A stretch of DNA of 64,000 nt from an uncultured Gammaproteobacteria bacterium (GTDB lineage: Bacteria > Pseudomonadota > Gammaproteobacteria > Pseudomonadales > Azotimanducaceae): assembly GCA_913045175.1 (NCBI GenBank), contig CAJWQG010000016.1, positions 1 to 64,000 on the forward strand, in the 5' to 3' direction. The stretch's first letter is position 1; each line of letters starts with the position of its first letter. The translations under genes were made by a program, and so were the position numbers. A model generated the notes under the pieces. That model saw only the letters and a list, made by a program, of their open reading frames with translations, was not told the origin of the DNA and ran no database searches. Positions 2,263 through 12,882 of this stretch are shown piece by piece.

Positions 2263-3765
2263 ATGACGATTAAAGAAACTGGGTCGTTAGTCGGAACTGA
2301 CCCAGAAAGTATTGCGATCAGCGCTCCGGATCGACCGTCTTTACCTCATGGTCTGCTTTCAGAGCAGACTCTTTCGGCGGGTGGTCAGCTCAAGTCACTT
2401 CAAGTTGGGGGAGATGATAGGGTTGCTATTGTGCTTCCTAACGGACCCGCGATGGCGAGCGCGTTTGTCTGTTTGTCACCCTGGTGTGCGACTGCGCCGT
2501 TAAATCCTGCCTATAAAACAGATGAATACGAGTTTTATCTCAACGATCTGGATGCGAAGATACTTTTGGTCGAAACCGGCTCTACTTCGCCCGCGTTGGA
2601 TGTTGCTAACGGACTTGGAATCAAGATCGTCGAGCTTCAGGAAGGAGAGGCTGCTGGTTCGTTCTCTCTTGACGCGGCGGATGGTGAAGCGATGAGTCGT
2701 GATGACGACGCGATCGCATTGATATTACACACTTCTGGTACTACATCGCGACCGAAGATGGTTCCTTTATCTCAGGCGAATATTGCGGCTTCGGCGAAGA
2801 ATATTTCCGCCACACTGTCGCTGACCCCGGATGATATTTGTTTGAATGTCATGCCGCTGTTTCATATACACGGGTTGATGGCACCGGTATTGGCGAGTCT
2901 GTCTTCAGGAGCCAGTGTCCATGCCACCCCGGGTTTTGATGCGCTTCGCTTTTTCAACTGGCTGGAAGAGGCTAAGCCCAGTTGGTATTCAGCGGTGCCC
3001 ACCATGCATCAGGCAATTCTGTCACGGGCACCTAGAAATACTGATGTGATCGAAGTGGCATCCTTAAGGTTTATTCGTTCATCTTCCGCGTCGCTACCCC
3101 CTCAGGTGATGGCGGCGCTGGAAGAAACTTTTGGTGCGCCGGTGATAGAGGCCTACGCCATGACAGAGGCGGCGCATCAGATGTGTTCGAATCCTCTACC
3201 ACCCGAGGCACGAAAGCCAGGATGTGTTGGCCCCGCTGCAGGGCCAGAAGTTACTATCATGAATGACGTGGGTGAAGAACTCATCTCTGGTGACGAAGGC
3301 GAAATTGTGATTCGTGGCCCGAACGTAACATCCGGCTACCTCGCCAATCCAGAAGCAAACGCAACCGCATTCCATGAGGGCGGCTGGTTTCGTACCGGCG
3401 ATCAGGGAATTATGGATGAAGATGGTTACGTCAAAGTAACAGGTCGATCAAAAGAAATTATCAATCGGGGCGGTGAGAAGATCGCTCCATTGGAGATTGA
3501 CGAAGTTATTCTCGACCATGAAGCGGTGGCGCAGGTGTGCAGCTTTGCCGTGCCCCATGACAAACTCGGTGAAGATGTTGGCGCAGCGATTGTGTTGCAC
3601 GATGGAGCGGAGATTTCCGAAAAGGAAATTAGAGAATTTACGGCGACACGGCTCGCGGATTTTAAAGTGCCAAGGGTCATTGTTTTTGTTGATGAAATAC
3701 CAAAAGGTGCCACCGGAAAAATACAGCGTATTGGCCTCGCTAAGGCACTTGGACTAGCCCAGTGA
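2263..3765 (+). CDS. AMP-binding acyl-CoA synthetase, AAE3/Pcs60 (oxalyl-CoA synthetase)-like
   Basis: A 500-residue ANL-superfamily enzyme that adenylates a carboxylate and forms the CoA thioester. Visible motifs are the P-loop-like core HTSGTTSRPKMVPL, the AMP site EAYAMTEAAHQM, GWFRTGDQG (hinge and ribose binding), INRGGEKIAPLEID and the C-terminal catalytic lysine region PKGATGKIQR. The wording TSGTTSRPK...PL is characteristic of the AAE3/Pcs60 oxalyl-CoA synthetase group, so a short dicarboxylate or similar acid is the best guess; this is inference. The ATG at 2263 follows GGTGGGAG. The stop overlaps the next start as GTGA at 3762, so the two are translationally coupled. Confidence 0.85.
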   Translation: MTIKETGSLVGTDPESIAISAPDRPSLPHGLLSEQTLSAGGQLKSLQVGGDDRVAIVLPNGPAMASAFVCLSPWCATAPLNPAYKTDEYEFYLNDLDAKILLVETGSTSPALDVANGLGIKIVELQEGEAAGSFSLDAADGEAMSRDDDAIALILHTSGTTSRPKMVPLSQANIAASAKNISATLSLTPDDICLNVMPLFHIHGLMAPVLASLSSGASVHATPGFDALRFFNWLEEAKPSWYSAVPTMHQAILSRAPRNTDVIEVASLRFIRSSSASLPPQVMAALEETFGAPVIEAYAMTEAAHQMCSNPLPPEARKPGCVGPAAGPEVTIMNDVGEELISGDEGEIVIRGPNVTSGYLANPEANATAFHEGGWFRTGDQGIMDEDGYVKVTGRSKEIINRGGEKIAPLEIDEVILDHEAVAQVCSFAVPHDKLGEDVGAAIVLHDGAEISEKEIREFTATRLADFKVPRVIVFVDEIPKGATGKIQRIGLAKALGLAQ

Positions 3766-4771: not shown

Positions 4772-5737
4772 GTGGATTCAACCGAACACCTGCTGGACCC
4801 TGAATTATTGCCCATGCTTGAATGGAAGATGGACCTCACCCTGTCGGATGAAACCATGGTCAAGGTAAGAAAAAGCCCCTGGCCAACTCCACCCCTGGGC
4901 GATCCGGATAGTCGTGGCGTATCTCGGGAAGAAATATTGGTCCAAAACCAGATGGCGGGTGCTGATGAGCCTGATGTGCGCTGTCTGTTGTATAAACCTC
5001 TGGAAGAAGCCGATGTCCTTCGACCCGGATACCTGCATATGCATGGGGGCGGATATTTGTTCGGCGAACCGGAGGGATCGGACGCCACGAACCTCAAGAT
5101 CTGTGCCGAGCTCGGCGCTGTAGTTGTTTCGGTAGATTATCGACTTGCTCCTGAGCATTCAGGTCTGGGGCCGCTGAATGACTGCTACGCGGCGCTGGGC
5201 TGGTTGCACAATAACGCGGATGAGTTGAATGTTGACGTTAATCGAATCGGCATCGGTGGTGAAAGTGCAGGAGGCGGTATGGCGGCCGCGCTGGGTCTCA
5301 AAGCCCGGGATGAAAACGAATATGCGGTTTGTCATCAGCATCTTACCTATCCCATGCTGGATGACCGAACCGGCAGCGACCAGAATCCGGGAGATCCGCT
5401 CGTTGGGGAATTTATCTGGACGCGCCCGCACAATCAGTATGCCTGGGGCGCCTATCTTGGTGATACACCACCGGCTGCGCCGCAAGTACCCGCGCGCGCT
5501 GAGTCTCTTGAAGGTTTGCCCCCTACTTGGATGCATACAGTAGCGCTGGATCTTTTTCGGGATGAGAATATCGAGTACGCGAAACGACTAATGGCGGCGA
5601 GCGTCCCGACTGATCTTTCTGTTTATCCCGGTGCATGTCATGGATACCAGGGGGTGGTCAAAGCCGCAGTCAGTAAACGGTACACCAGGGACTTTATGGA
5701 GGCGCTCGCGAAAGGCCTGGGTGTTATCAACCGGTAA
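4772..5737 (+). CDS. Alpha/beta hydrolase, hormone-sensitive-lipase family esterase
   Basis: A 321-residue esterase. The oxyanion motif HGGGY (in LHMHGGGYLFGEP) and the nucleophile elbow GGESAGGG are those of bacterial HSL-type (family IV) carboxylesterases; the C-terminal GACHGY supplies the catalytic His. The GTG at 4772 is preceded by AAGGAAA. It lies 35 bases behind the reductase and probably closes the same operon, perhaps releasing the acid used by the CoA ligase. Its last 11 bases overlap the end of the convergent selenoprotein gene. Confidence 0.85.
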   Translation: MDSTEHLLDPELLPMLEWKMDLTLSDETMVKVRKSPWPTPPLGDPDSRGVSREEILVQNQMAGADEPDVRCLLYKPLEEADVLRPGYLHMHGGGYLFGEPEGSDATNLKICAELGAVVVSVDYRLAPEHSGLGPLNDCYAALGWLHNNADELNVDVNRIGIGGESAGGGMAAALGLKARDENEYAVCHQHLTYPMLDDRTGSDQNPGDPLVGEFIWTRPHNQYAWGAYLGDTPPAAPQVPARAESLEGLPPTWMHTVALDLFRDENIEYAKRLMAASVPTDLSVYPGACHGYQGVVKAAVSKRYTRDFMEALAKGLGVINR

Positions 5738-6245
5738 GAATCCCGATCGCCTGTTCACAGGCTGCTGCTGCGCGCTCGCTAATCTCATCTTCGGTAAGAC
5801 TTCCTAACGGATGATCGAGAATAACGAACGGATAGTCAGGGATACCCAGCATCCTGGCGATATTCTTTGACGTAACCTCGAACGGTGCTGTGCACAGTAC
5901 TACTGCGCGTTTGCCCAGCTGCTCGAAAGTAATGCCGTCGTGCACACTGCACGTTGAGCAGCTCCCTCAGTCGCCCGAAGCAGTAATTAGGTAGTCACAC
6001 TCAGGGGAGAGATTGGTTAGCAGCTCTGTCGGTGCCGGTGCGCCCGCGTTATTCTTTGTCTCCATTGGCAAGATCTTGCCGCCGAATTTTGATTGCAAGA
6101 GCTTCGCCGTCTGACTTAACAGTAGATCGCCCCTGGCCTTCTTGTTCCATAGTAGCCCGATAGTTAGTCCCTCAAGACTGACGAGCGCAGGGGCTCTTGT
6201 GGCTTCTTTTTCTTTTGCCGGAATTGTGGGGTCGACCAGTTTCAT
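5727..6245 (-). CDS. UGSC-family selenoprotein (in-frame TGA = selenocysteine)
   Basis: 172 residues if the TGA at 5969-5967 is read as selenocysteine. Frame upstream (ATG at 6245, 92 residues ending in LITASGD) and downstream (GSCSTCSVHDG...) is continuous, giving the diagnostic motif D-U-G-S-C at residues 92-96 plus a further Cys99. This is the UGSC (seleno)protein family, known from marine metagenomic selenoprotein surveys; non-selenium homologues read CGSC. The conserved tail IARMLGIPDYPFV and HPLGS is also present. U93 and C96 form a redox pair by family analogy; the substrate is unknown. The true stop is TGA at 5729-5727. An alternative, premature termination after 92 residues, would remove all conserved redox residues. 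Confidence 0.9.
5939..5953 (-). promoter_or_regulatory. SECIS-like hairpin of the UGSC mRNA
   Basis: On the transcript, the 15 bases starting 14 after the UGA form CGUGC-AGUGU-GCACG: a perfect 5-bp stem with a 5-base loop that has G at its second position. The loop starts 18-19 bases after the UGA. This fits the general bacterial SECIS rules (short stem, small loop with G in the first two positions, loop roughly 16-37 bases from UGA). A competing stem (GCUGC/GCAGU) overlaps it. No folding energy was computed. Confidence 0.65.
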
Positions 6246-6265: not shown

Positions 6266-7306
6266 TTAACAGTCAATGCAAACGCCAATTGACTGGGACT
6301 GCATAATGGAACCCCTTCCACGACTCCACGAGGGGATGAATGCAGAGTGACCTCCGGCGTCCCCACCGCCGACAGTGATCAGAATGTCATCGGCGACAAG
6401 GCCCCGATGACAGTCTTCTCTATCTTGGTGTTGGTAGTCAGCGAAGTACTTGCCGATTTTCTCCAGGACTTTACGTGGCCGCTTCGCTTGTTCGAACAGG
6501 TATTCTCTGACGTCACTCTTGGTCCACCCGGTGCCCGCAACAATGTTGACGTGCTCCGGAGAAAAAACGATCACTGTCTGGCCGGGGCTGATACATCCAT
6601 AGTTAGCCATGGCATCAGCCATGGTGTCGAGAATGGCTTCCGGTGTATTACCGCCATGATTTTCAACGTTACAGAATCCGGCACCGGCAAATACAGTGAC
6701 TGAACTCACGCCATCGGGATATCCGAGTTCTTCACACAGTGGTTGCCACGGGTTTCTGTCCGCACGTTCTGCAATACAAAAACTGTATTTCCCCGGATTC
6801 CCCTGCGTAGACTTGTCAGAAATACCAGGAGTGATTTTGAAAACGTTCATCAGCGTCAGCCTGATAGATCTACCGATAGTTGCATTGGCGCGGTTGCCTG
6901 GACCAAACAGATTGACGCCCGAATTCATGGCAATCTCGTCAACTATGGGTCCGCTAACAACCAACAGGTGCCCTGAGCCACCAGTACTTACTGTAGAGCC
7001 GTGAAAGTTAAATGGCTCGCGGTCCATTGCTTCAAACGCGGCGACGACAACAGGAAAGTATTCCGGCAGACAACCCGCCATCACGGCGTTTACCGCAGCA
7101 GAGTGTAAGGTCAGTTCAAGCCCGGTCGCTGGATGATGTGCAATAACCGTCTCGGGAGGGCGTCCCTCCATTGCCAGCATAGCGGTGACACGACCTTCTT
7201 CAGGTGGAACGACCGGTAAGCCATCGGTCCAGCCCTGGTCATAACAGTAATCGATTACTTCAAGCAGATCGTCGGGTGCTTCGTGGATCGCTGGTGCTTC
7301 TGGCAT
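6266..7306 (-). CDS. Conserved protein partnered with UGSC selenoprotein; ends in CxxC
   Basis: 346 residues from the ATG at 7306, chosen because AGAGG precedes it; the frame is open 25 codons further upstream. The N-terminal block DQGWTDGLPVVPP and the glycine-rich middle (GSTVSTGGSGHLLVVSGP, LFGPGNRANATIGR) recur in proteins encoded next to UGSC genes, as I recall. The last residues are C-I-D-C, a C-terminal CxxC that could exchange electrons with the U-G-S-C centre; this is inference. It lies 20 bases upstream of the selenoprotein on the same strand, so the two are almost certainly co-transcribed. No signal peptide seen; biochemical activity unknown. Confidence 0.7.
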   Translation of the reverse strand: MPEAPAIHEAPDDLLEVIDYCYDQGWTDGLPVVPPEEGRVTAMLAMEGRPPETVIAHHPATGLELTLHSAAVNAVMAGCLPEYFPVVVAAFEAMDREPFNFHGSTVSTGGSGHLLVVSGPIVDEIAMNSGVNLFGPGNRANATIGRSIRLTLMNVFKITPGISDKSTQGNPGKYSFCIAERADRNPWQPLCEELGYPDGVSSVTVFAGAGFCNVENHGGNTPEAILDTMADAMANYGCISPGQTVIVFSPEHVNIVAGTGWTKSDVREYLFEQAKRPRKVLEKIGKYFADYQHQDREDCHRGLVADDILITVGGGDAGGHSAFIPSWSRGRGSIMQSQSIGVCIDC

Positions 7307-7401
7307 GGGCTGACCTCTGCGGAGTTCGTAAATGAATAAACCATGTTTTCCCGGTTTCTTCAATACACAGGCAAGGCACACGACACGTTTGAGGGTACAT
7401 G

Positions 7402-9023: not shown

Positions 9024-9485
9024 ATGAATATGAATGCCTACCGACCACTGCTTTTATTAGTATCTTTGATTTGCAGCGTGATATTGCTCAGTTCCTGCAA
9101 TGGATTTGCCGGCGCTATGCGTAAAGTGACCTATCCACCGGACTTTCTCTACATAAGCGAGGTGCAGCTGCGTTCAAAAATTTATCAGCTTGCCGCCCAG
9201 CTAAGTGTTCTGGAAACAACACTCGCGGGTGATGATAGCGGGGCTGTGAATCAACAACAGAAGACACTGGATATATTGGGTGAAATCGAAAGGATTGGTG
9301 GTGAATTGAAAGCCACTGAATCCGGATCCAATCATCCCTTTCTTGAAGACTATATGGGTGATTTTGTCAGTACCGTAACCCGTGCGCGCATTGCTGCATC
9401 GCTTACCCCGCCACGTTACTACTTATCCGGGCGGGTATCTGGTGCCTGTACCAACTCTCATGAGGTGAATCGCCGCAACGACTAA
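9024..9485 (+). CDS. Small lipoprotein with a degenerate CxxCH-like site
   Basis: 153 residues from the ATG at 9024 (AGGA five bases upstream). Signal peptide LLLLVSLICSVILLSSC ends in an L-S-S-C lipobox, so the mature protein is predicted to be lipidated. The body is helical. The C terminus reads RYYLSGRVSGACTNSHEVNR: a C-x-x-S-H where a c-type haem site would be C-x-x-C-H; TCT (Ser) is one base from TGT (Cys). Function unknown. It converges on the acyl-CoA dehydrogenase, and the two stops share the bases CTAA. Confidence 0.65.
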   Translation: MNMNAYRPLLLLVSLICSVILLSSCNGFAGAMRKVTYPPDFLYISEVQLRSKIYQLAAQLSVLETTLAGDDSGAVNQQQKTLDILGEIERIGGELKATESGSNHPFLEDYMGDFVSTVTRARIAASLTPPRYYLSGRVSGACTNSHEVNRRND

Positions 9486-10681
9486 CCAAAGTACACTCCG
9501 CCATCGGTATTGCGGAGTTTGTCTCTGGCAATCACCATGCGATGTACCTCCGACGGACCCTCGCCGATTCGTTTGACCCTGAGTTCCCGATACCAGCGTT
9601 CAAGGGGCATCTCCTGGGCGACCCCCATGCCGCCGAACATCTGAATTGCCCGGTCAACGACTCTACCGGCAGTTTCTGTACCGTATAGCTTGCAGATGGA
9701 AGCATCTACCTTGCCGGGTTCGCCTGCATCAATCCGTGCCGCGGCTTCGTAAACAAGCAGTCGGGCAGCTTTTAACTCCACTTCGGAATCTGCGATCATC
9801 CACTGGATCGCCTGTTTATCCATTAGCATGCCGTCTCTGGTCGGCCGCTGTTTCACCCAGCCGCAGGCCATATCGAGAGCCTCCTGCGCGATGCCGATGC
9901 ATCCCGCTGCGTAGGGTACCCGCGCATTGACCAGCCAATTTTGTGCGACCCCGAATCCGTGTCCAACCCCACCAAGTACGTTTTCTTCAGGAACCTCGCA
10001 GTCTTCAAGAACAATCTCCCAGGGGGAGAGGGCACGGATGACTTTGATTTCGTTGAAGGTAATTCCCGGGAAGTCCGGCTCAACGATAAACGCCGTAATC
10101 TGTGGTGGATGCCCCTCTTCTCCGTCGTTGGTTCTCGCAAAGATGATGCCATAGGTTGCCAGGCCCGCCCCGGTAATCCACATCTTTCGTCCATTGAGGT
10201 ACCACTTGTCGCCGCGTTTTTCGGCACGGGTAGTGATGTTGTTGCGAGGGTCTGACCCCCCTGTGGGTTCAGTAATAGCGACAAACATATTAGCGTTACC
10301 TTCCACGCAGGGTACGCCATATTTCTCTTTTTGCGCGGCGGTGCCACCCCAGATGACGTTTGGTGGTCCACCCTTAAATGCATTCAGTGCCGGTGCATAA
10401 CCGCCAAGGCGACATTTCGCAGATTCCTCGGCGACGATAATCTGCGTCAGGGCGCTTGCAGGATTGCCACCATATTCATCTGGAACCGCCATTCGGGTGA
10501 GACCCATGTCTTGGGCGATCGCGCGGAGGTGTTCAAGATCTTCAGGTGAGCACCCGGTGGCATCATGAGGCAATTTGTCCTCGATGGGTTTGACTTCCTC
10601 CCGCATGAACCGACGAATCTGATCACGCAGTAGTATGAGTTCTTCCGGCAAGATGAATCCGTAATGATTAGGGTCCGTCAT
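9482..10681 (-). CDS. Acyl-CoA dehydrogenase family protein
   Basis: 399 residues from the ATG at 10681. FAD-dependent alpha,beta-dehydrogenation of an acyl-CoA. Visible are AITEPTGGSDP (flavin/substrate loop), GDKWYLNGRKMWITGAG, the C-terminal QMFGGMGVAQEMPLERWYR block and SEVHRMVIARDKL. Other in-frame starts lie up to 33 bases upstream. Stand-alone transcription unit; the physiological acyl chain is unknown. Confidence 0.9.
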   Translation of the reverse strand: MTDPNHYGFILPEELILLRDQIRRFMREEVKPIEDKLPHDATGCSPEDLEHLRAIAQDMGLTRMAVPDEYGGNPASALTQIIVAEESAKCRLGGYAPALNAFKGGPPNVIWGGTAAQKEKYGVPCVEGNANMFVAITEPTGGSDPRNNITTRAEKRGDKWYLNGRKMWITGAGLATYGIIFARTNDGEEGHPPQITAFIVEPDFPGITFNEIKVIRALSPWEIVLEDCEVPEENVLGGVGHGFGVAQNWLVNARVPYAAGCIGIAQEALDMACGWVKQRPTRDGMLMDKQAIQWMIADSEVELKAARLLVYEAAARIDAGEPGKVDASICKLYGTETAGRVVDRAIQMFGGMGVAQEMPLERWYRELRVKRIGEGPSEVHRMVIARDKLRNTDGGVYFG

Positions 10682-10813
10682 GTCGCGCTCCAGTTCACCA
10701 CGTTTTTTCATCATACCACGAACAATGATCAGGTGGAGCTAGACCTCGGAGGAGCGCTAGTGGTAATTTTCTATCTCTTGCTACTATTGAATACGTTTAT
10801 CCGGACGGCATTG

Positions 10814-11298: not shown

Positions 11299-12882
11299 AT
11301 GAAATCTCAACAGGGAATCAAACTTACTGATGATCAGATGCGCAGATTTATCTGCGATGGTGTGCTGGTGCTTGATAGTGACGTTTCAGAGAGTATTCAT
11401 CAGACAATCTATGAAAAGATTCAATGGAACAATAATCGTGAATTCAACATGGGTAACAATGTTTTGCCAAGGATTCCCGAGTTGCAGAAGGTCCTGGATT
11501 CACCCGTAATCCATGGTGGCCTCCAGAGTGTCCTGGGCGATGACTATATTCTTCATCCCCACCGGTTTATGCACGCCAGTGAGCCGCTGGATGAAGACAT
11601 GCGGGATATGGAACTGACAGGGCATGAGAATCAGCCGCCGATGGGCAAGGGTTCTTCAGGGGGTAGTGGCTGGCACCAGGACTCGCAAAGCCCATTATCC
11701 AGGGCGCGATACCATGTGCCGCGGTTAGCGATGATTCTTTACTTTCCGCAGGATACACCGATCGAACGTGGTCCGACCCGGGTGATCCCCGGAACGCATC
11801 TACAGGCAGGTTTGCAGGAGAGCAATTTTCCGTTCGCGTTTGTGTGCGACTACGTCAAAGCGGGTACCTGTTTCCTGATTGCTTTTGATATTGCGCACGC
11901 GGCTTTCCCGAATAGAACAGACATGAGCCGCTATATGTTCAAGTTTGTTTTTATGCGAACCAGTCATCCCACGGCGCCCAGTTGGGATGGTGGGACCGAA
12001 ACATGGAAGACGCCAGAGACGCGACTGGGTCAATACGAACACACCAAAGCCTGGTCTTATATCTGGGATTGGATGCGGGGTGCGCGGCGGGAGTTCGTAG
12101 ATAGCGACAGCGATACGGATAAGCTGATTAGCCACCTCAATGGCGGGGACCCGGAGACGGGCCTCAATGCGATTTATGAACTGGCGAGTATGGGTCCGCG
12201 GGCGGTCGATCCTCTGACTCAGAATTTGTTGGTTCATACAGATCGACCGCTGGAGCGTTATAAAAAAGATACCAGGAAAAGAGCGTCTGATGAGGTGCGT
12301 CCGCGTGAATGGAACGAAGGTGCATTTGCCCTTCAGGATGAAGCGTACGCGTTGGGCGCTATCGGTGTACCCGCAATTGATGCGCTTGTCACCTTACTGC
12401 AACACGAAGACCCGTGGATCAAGGTCAATGCTGCATTTGCTTTGGGGGAAGTGGGACCCTGTGCAGGGGTGGCAATGTCCGCCCTGGCCGGGCAATTGAA
12501 GGATGAGCACCATCAGGTAGTTCGCGCCGTACTCGATGCCATTGGTTGTATTGGCGTAGATGCCAGCATTGCGCTACCGGCTATTCGACGGTTGTTATTG
12601 GAGGACAATCCGGCCTGGCAGGAGAAATTGATGCGTGGATGGACTGGCGAGAGTCAGGTTCGCTTCAATGCGATGTGCGCGCTCCTGAACTCCGACATTC
12701 CTGTTACTGATATCGAAGATCTTCTGGTTGGTACATTTCGTGACCCCAACGGTTACGTGCCGGCCCTGGCACTCGAAGCACTTACCCGGCACGGTAGTCC
12801 GCAAGGCTTACGATCTGCCCTGACGTTTCTAAAGACACATCGCTGGGATGATTCGCTCGCAAACGAGCAACGAGTTTACTAG
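11299..12882 (+). CDS. Phytanoyl-CoA dioxygenase-like Fe/2-oxoglutarate oxygenase with C-terminal HEAT repeats
   Basis: 527 residues. The N-terminal PhyH-type domain (about 1-260) has the iron ligands in WHQDSQ (H126, D128) and DIAHAA (H200) and a probable 2-oxoglutarate Arg in MSRYMFKF (R211). The remaining half contains HEAT/PBS-lyase-type helical repeats (AYALGAIGVPAIDALVTLL, VNAAFALGEVGPCAG). The repeats may bind a carrier or partner protein. A close paralogue lies at 31542-33149. The stop TAG overlaps the stop of the convergent gene in a shared CTAG. Substrate unknown. Confidence 0.85.
   Translation: MKSQQGIKLTDDQMRRFICDGVLVLDSDVSESIHQTIYEKIQWNNNREFNMGNNVLPRIPELQKVLDSPVIHGGLQSVLGDDYILHPHRFMHASEPLDEDMRDMELTGHENQPPMGKGSSGGSGWHQDSQSPLSRARYHVPRLAMILYFPQDTPIERGPTRVIPGTHLQAGLQESNFPFAFVCDYVKAGTCFLIAFDIAHAAFPNRTDMSRYMFKFVFMRTSHPTAPSWDGGTETWKTPETRLGQYEHTKAWSYIWDWMRGARREFVDSDSDTDKLISHLNGGDPETGLNAIYELASMGPRAVDPLTQNLLVHTDRPLERYKKDTRKRASDEVRPREWNEGAFALQDEAYALGAIGVPAIDALVTLLQHEDPWIKVNAAFALGEVGPCAGVAMSALAGQLKDEHHQVVRAVLDAIGCIGVDASIALPAIRRLLLEDNPAWQEKLMRGWTGESQVRFNAMCALLNSDIPVTDIEDLLVGTFRDPNGYVPALALEALTRHGSPQGLRSALTFLKTHRWDDSLANEQRVY

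Follow-up and report, generated by a model that had tools for sequence, protein, structure and literature searches.

The UGSC selenoprotein family has been known since 2008 as "UGSC-containing protein" (PMC2398784) and is treated again in the available parts of PMC9312934, PMC9402790, and PMC13188914. The accessible 2008 text suggests a thioredoxin-like fold and notes a fusion of UGSC to a conserved domain called "Unknown_1" (Figure S1A). In the later papers, again as far as their text was available, UGSC is among the prominent families of ocean metagenomes, with 8.2% of the selenoprotein genes (PMC9402790), selenocysteine (Sec) decoded from UAG is already described for Geodermatophilaceae, UGSC-motif proteins included (PMC5330540), and a 2026 review calls the functions of such predicted selenoproteins largely uncharacterized (PMC13188914). 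The available portions of the literature searched held no account of a near-constant pairing of UGSC with a partner gene, of serine-containing UGSC paralogs, or of UGSC function. The window, by which we mean the whole 64,000-nucleotide stretch analyzed, carries a new member of this already known family. Like the family defined by PF24696 and NF041046 and described in the accessible text of PMC2398784, the window gene matches over its full length, contains D-U-G-S-C and UxxC, has a SECIS hairpin, and belongs to a Sec-decoding host; nothing essential sets it apart, its NCBIfam score lying 0.2 bits under the cutoff. Judging from sequence comparison, it is almost certainly a genuine UGSC-family selenoprotein in which UGA is recoded as selenocysteine and which is paired with a partner gene.

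Features of the UGSC locus in the window
Feature	Position	Strand	Basis or remark
UGSC selenoprotein gene, 172 aa with Sec93	5728–6245	−	Single in-frame TGA; PF24696 and NF041046 matches
UGA codon read as selenocysteine (U93) within D-U-G-S-C	5967–5969	−	Column conservation
Bacterial SECIS hairpin; apical stem 5953–5939, loop GUG 5947–5945	5924–5969	−	Fold and family conservation
Partner gene, unnamed family	6266–7381	−	GTG start at 7381; in-frame ATG at 7306 judged likelier, 346 aa

The gene is one open frame on the minus strand from the ATG at 6245 to the stop TGA at 5730–5728, which is directly followed by TAA, and the TGA at 5969–5967 is its sole internal stop. The original prediction, that two short frames are a single one joined by this TGA, therefore describes the locus correctly; its span of 5727–6245 located the gene, with an end one base beyond the last base of the stop at 5728. 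Read through, the product around Sec is TASGDUGSCSTCSVHDG, which contains the predicted D-U-G-S-C and with it the family signature of Sec followed by GSC (U93-G94-S95-C96). Aligned to the UGSC family, as had been proposed, this product matches PF24696 over its full length (E = 1.9e-50, model positions 2–171 of 172, 170.9–171.8 bits, cutoff 25). The N-terminal 92 aa before the TGA score 65.7 bits when taken alone, against at least 170.9 bits for the read-through product, bearing out the claim of conserved sequence on both sides of the codon. Compared with five of six orthologs, pN was 0.11–0.13 after the TGA, where pS was 0.72–0.82, and 0.17–0.26 before it, with pS at 0.61–0.83 across both halves; the sixth ortholog, 96% identical, is too close to judge. 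The codons beyond the TGA are under purifying selection, tighter than that on the codons before it, in five of the six comparisons. The expectation that automatic annotation would miss or truncate the gene holds in part. The ORF listing (table 11, minimum 80 aa) gives solely a 92-aa ORF at 5967–6245, and NF041046, the NCBIfam UGSC model, scores the product at 124.8 bits (E = 2.7e-36), marginally under its cutoff of 125, so a pipeline applying that cutoff could miss the gene; curated Pfam and NCBIfam models nevertheless exist for the family.

The case for Sec had been tied to the presence of selA, selB, and selC, and the genome holds the full set: SelA (E = 1.6e-162), SelB adjoining it on one contig (470.6 bits), a 721-aa protein in which SelD follows a pyridine-nucleotide oxidoreductase (Ndh-like) domain, and a tRNA-Sec whose anticodon is TCA (UCA). 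This SelD fusion lies at L021 310–2475 (contig C18), and the gene for tRNA-Sec is found some 0.6 kb further downstream. Three further UGSC copies are found elsewhere in the genome, each with exactly one in-frame TGA. Among 58 related genomes, UGSC occurs in 34, with 70 matches in total; SelA is present in all 34 UGSC-bearing relatives, UGSC in none of the 19 that lack SelA (Fisher 4.5e-11), and SelA without UGSC is seen in another 5 genomes. Sampled across the phylum, UGSC proved rare (5 of 398 genomes, this one counted).

A single TGA is present in 64 of the 70 matches in related genomes; of the six with none, three are fragments that stop short of the Sec site, two are full length, and the last is a match both weak and partial. 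In the fetched loci, the Sec column holds TGA in 111 of 112 readable rows and TGC in one (L083), while three rows have no residue there, two of them from L120, whose match is in halves, and one a further partial match in L083. This agrees with the original prediction, which allowed only Cys or Sec at the position, apart from two serine paralogs outside the alignment and one UAG. The 97 sequences of the alignment, from which the serine copies and L120 were excluded, show no variation at Sec93 (entered as C) or C96. The UAG is in L120, from Geodermatophilus ruber, where TAG stands at the Sec site (9741–9743) and the best tRNA-Sec match in the genome (L169 1501–1596) has the anticodon CTA (CUA) and is called tRNA-Pyl by ARAGORN. 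L120 resembles the Geodermatophilaceae selenoproteins in the available text of PMC5330540 in having UAG at the Sec position together with a tRNA-Sec match of anticodon CUA, whereas the window gene differs from them in using UGA and tRNA-Sec(UCA). The two serine paralogs, L174 118–654 and L175 152–784 (both minus strand), are full length and intact, with no TGA. Set against the motif by eye, they read FGD-S-ESCASCS and IGD-S-ECSSAS, respectively, with Ser in the place of Sec (codon TCA in L174), and no partner gene was found on their contigs. The simplest reading of these exceptional copies is as degenerate paralogs; they might be either degenerate or regulatory. Their lack of a partner, in two cases, which is few, fits the idea that Sec and the partner act jointly in catalysis.

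In bacterial SECIS elements, the apical loop lies about 16–37 bases past the UGA and has a G among its first two bases. A SECIS-like hairpin with its loop 18–19 bases past the UGA had been predicted, and the hairpin is there, with 19 bases between the UGA and a 3-base GUG loop, and is conserved across the family. By itself it is not significant, either against dinucleotide shuffles (z of −0.7 to −1.5) or against synonymous shuffles (z of −1.59, with 7.3% of 1000 equally stable). For the family, we used 107 sequences, that is, the 112 readable rows less one near a contig end and four duplicates (106 TGA genes and the TGC gene of L083). The spacing between UGA and loop was 19 bases in 89 of these 107, compared with 50 of 535 synonymous shuffles, and, of the 104 loops at an accepted distance, 101 had a G among their first two bases, compared with 152 of 341 in shuffles, all of these counts coming from related sequences and not from independent events. 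The commonest apical loops in the family are GUG, GUU, and GUC. Against synonymous shuffles, the 107 members had a mean z of −1.08 at UGA+0..48, with nearly neutral flanks (−0.08 and −0.17 in the next two stretches, −0.31 in the preceding one). The two weak matches that an Rfam scan listed (E = 0.71 and 1.6) both lie away from the hairpin. What marks the hairpin as a conserved SECIS is family-wide conservation and not its own stability. That a Cys or Trp gene was interrupted by a nonsense mutation or by an error in sequencing, so that a pseudogene or a cut-short protein of 92 aa remains, would suit the lone 92-aa ORF listed and a hairpin not significant alone, but this reading has next to no chance of being right, being refuted by the conservation of the TGA, at the same column in nearly every readable row and in all four UGSC copies of the genome, with purifying selection past it and a conserved SECIS.

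The partner gene, which the original prediction does not mention, adjoins the UGSC gene on its upstream side and on the same strand. Sequence comparison of its family with Pfam, NCBIfam, and the PDB gave no significant relative, just scattered single-member matches (E = 0.027–0.09). Each of the four UGSC copies in this genome has a member of the family next to it, L003 as a single fused protein of 542 aa. In the 29 loci fetched with UGSC (L023–L051), for which the partner was not a query, it lies at most 125 bases from the UGSC match in every case, once on the opposite strand. In the 58 related genomes, it is within 1 kb of 62 of the 64 TGA-bearing UGSC matches, the two others being a match that lies at the end of a contig and a weak match in two pieces; the partner occurs in 35 of these genomes and UGSC in 34, with 34 in common (Fisher 2.7e-15). 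It is usually a separate gene, mostly upstream of UGSC, and the fetched loci include seven stop-free UGSC-partner fusions, with UGSC first in all. The "Unknown_1" fusion in the available text of PMC2398784 is like L003 in joining UGSC to a conserved unnamed domain, the order in L003 being UGSC and then partner, and differs from the arrangement found here in that the partner is mostly a separate neighboring gene; Unknown_1 might be the partner domain. The distance matrices of UGSC and partner correlate with r = 0.926, the best of 2000 permutations reaching 0.107 (Mantel test on 89 of 102 pairs, kept after removal of near-identical and short ones), a value that partly reflects shared species history, the family sequences being related.

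Conversely, the fetched locus contained no UGSC for 8 of the 80 loci found with the partner as query, and 3 of 67 partner matches in the 58 genomes had no UGSC within 1 kb, so the partner can act alone or with something else. Its most conserved residues, numbered from the M at 7306, include D28, G29, L30, P31, A77, G78, C79, N141, R146, R149, N154, C177, E180, W187, and G314. Split matches had suggested in-frame stops in a Poribacteria partner; the DNA shows a shorter variant without an insert. At L004 16–420, the partner has an N-terminal extension, thioredoxin-like by eye, of which 135 aa were scanned without a Pfam match. The near-constant partner, the 1:1 fusions, and the partnerless Sec-less paralogs make the function of UGSC directly testable.

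An AlphaFold2 model of UGSC built from the 97 aligned sequences (pLDDT 94, pTM 0.88) predicts strands that alternate with helices, Sec93 lying after strand 85–91 and before helix 94–108, in what would be a flavodoxin/Rossmann-like fold. The invariant or nearly invariant residues are P6, K36, K64, D92, U93, G94, S95, C96, D103, E108, G111, F122, G134, H145, P146, and A159. The best PDB matches listed for the model are generic alpha/beta folds, receiver and flavodoxin-like ones included (Z of 7.9–10.7), among them a designed protein (Z of 10.7, 125 aligned, 3.1 Å), a chain of the methyl-coenzyme M reductase activation complex (Z of 10.1, 130 aligned, 3.1 Å), and lumazine synthases (Z of about 9); from matches of this kind to a predicted model, no function follows. 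A PDB sequence search with UGSC profiles reached a best E of 0.03. The model of the fused UGSC-partner protein is of similar quality (pLDDT 94, pTM 0.93), and the 50 PDB matches listed for it mostly cover the UGSC half. No thioredoxin-family entry appears among the 50 matches listed in either PDB comparison of the UGSC model, which is a missing match and not proof; the predicted structure may cast doubt on the thioredoxin-like fold proposed in 2008. This bears on the view of UGSC as a general thiol/selenol antioxidant or disulfide reductase of thioredoxin-like function, with the partner as its client or reductase. The UxxC motif, the fold and redox function proposed in the accessible text of PMC2398784, and AhpC/Redoxin domains in 2 of 148 scanned neighbors are in keeping with it. 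We nonetheless regard it as improbable, given that the listed fold matches are of the lumazine synthase, receiver, and flavodoxin-like kinds and that the paralogous pairs are distant (the UGSC copies of this genome are 25–32% identical to one another, and the others 28–32% to the window copy), which suggests substrate specialization rather than housekeeping.

Other neighbors of the pair were sampled at random from 59 of the 80 loci, 148 genes each being drawn from the 294 at under 3 kb (near) and the 275 at over 5 kb (far). By Pfam, tripartite-transporter receptors made up 6 of 148 near and 6 of 148 far genes, short-chain dehydrogenases 2 and 2, and luciferase-like domains were found in 5 of the 148 near genes; in neighbor clusters named by eye, short-chain dehydrogenases were near 10 loci and far from 5, and luciferase-like monooxygenases were near 5 and far from 1. 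Of 14 other window genes examined, 11 had no homolog near other UGSC-partner pairs. The acyl-CoA dehydrogenase gene at 9482–10714 had four, at distances of 43 to 7129 bases, and the genes at 2263–3765 and 11299–12882 one each. Apart from the partner, no neighbor recurs convincingly. The neighborhood was set aside as a guide to substrate, catabolic enzymes being present, none of them constantly, and the near and far Pfam counts differing little. The UGSC gene itself converges with an alpha/beta-hydrolase gene on the plus strand (4772–5737), the two overlapping by 10 bases at 5728–5737.

GrdB and PrdB, the selenoproteins of PF07355, use a separate companion subunit. They are like UGSC in carrying Sec after a hydrophobic stretch, mostly within UxxC, and in a Sec column that aligns with that of UGSC by profile; they differ in having U-P-x-C in place of D-U-G-S-C. 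In one hhalign comparison of UGSC with PF07355-like profiles (Prob 22.7, E = 9e-4), the two Sec columns aligned exactly, and a global alignment gave Prob 28.7 and E = 1.1e-4. PF07355-like genes occur in 28 of the 58 relatives. In the 28 loci read (of 30, L132–L161; L132, a full-length uninterrupted match, and L159 stand outside), an in-frame TGA lies at the Sec site in all 28, within UxxC in 26 and UxxD in two; the alignment of these proteins (A5) omits four of the 28 (L137, L147, L149, and L153). The results would fit UGSC as a Sec reductase of this kind, in which Sec attacks a carbon beside a leaving group, the partner holds the substrate, and the paralogs are catabolic reductases for different small molecules. 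Besides the aligned Sec columns, the conserved TGA of the PF07355-like genes, and the companion subunit, the short-chain dehydrogenases and luciferase-like enzymes near the pairs speak for it. Against it, an hhalign probability of 21–29% is suggestive of homology and not proof, none of the four UGSC proteins had PF07355 among its listed matches, even with E allowed up to 10 (UGSC falls below the Pfam cutoff), no UGSC locus is among the PF07355 matches at E = 1e-3 in the 58 genomes, and the neighbor counts are small, with short-chain dehydrogenases equal near and far in the Pfam samples. We consider it possible, if on the unlikely side; reductive bond cleavage by UGSC would be a lead and not a result.

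The explanation we favor as a whole, and hold to be very probable, is that the UGSC selenoprotein is half of a two-gene Sec module. SelA, SelB, SelD, and tRNA-Sec, with the in-frame SECIS whose loop lies 19 bases downstream, almost certainly recode the UGA at 5969–5967. UGSC would contribute a Sec93-x-x-Cys96 redox pair on its predicted flavodoxin/Rossmann-like domain, and the partner, with its conserved DGLP loop, Cys79, Cys177, and E180, would most likely be the substrate-binding half. The redox pair may face a pocket formed with the partner, which would select the substrate; Sec would attack a small molecule, a selenylsulfide with Cys96 would form, and cellular thiols would reset it, the paralogous pairs serving different substrates. 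That UGSC and its partner make up a two-component Sec-dependent oxidoreductase is, we infer, an even bet, and assignment to any one particular substrate class would be doubtful. More tentatively still than the oxidoreductase itself, the pairs might represent a widespread, unrecognized class of Sec-dependent reductases with two components, which in bacteria from the sea, fresh water, soil, and groundwater (habitats judged by record titles) would be the counterpart to glycine and D-proline reductase, duplicated into substrate-specific pairs that break down scarce organics, with loss of Sec to Ser accompanying loss of the partner.

The TGA-split PF07355-like proteins, with U-P-x-C in 26 and U-P-x-D in two, are a second set of selenoproteins that standard annotation could truncate. 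This genome has five PF07355-like matches, on contigs C2, C58, and C117.
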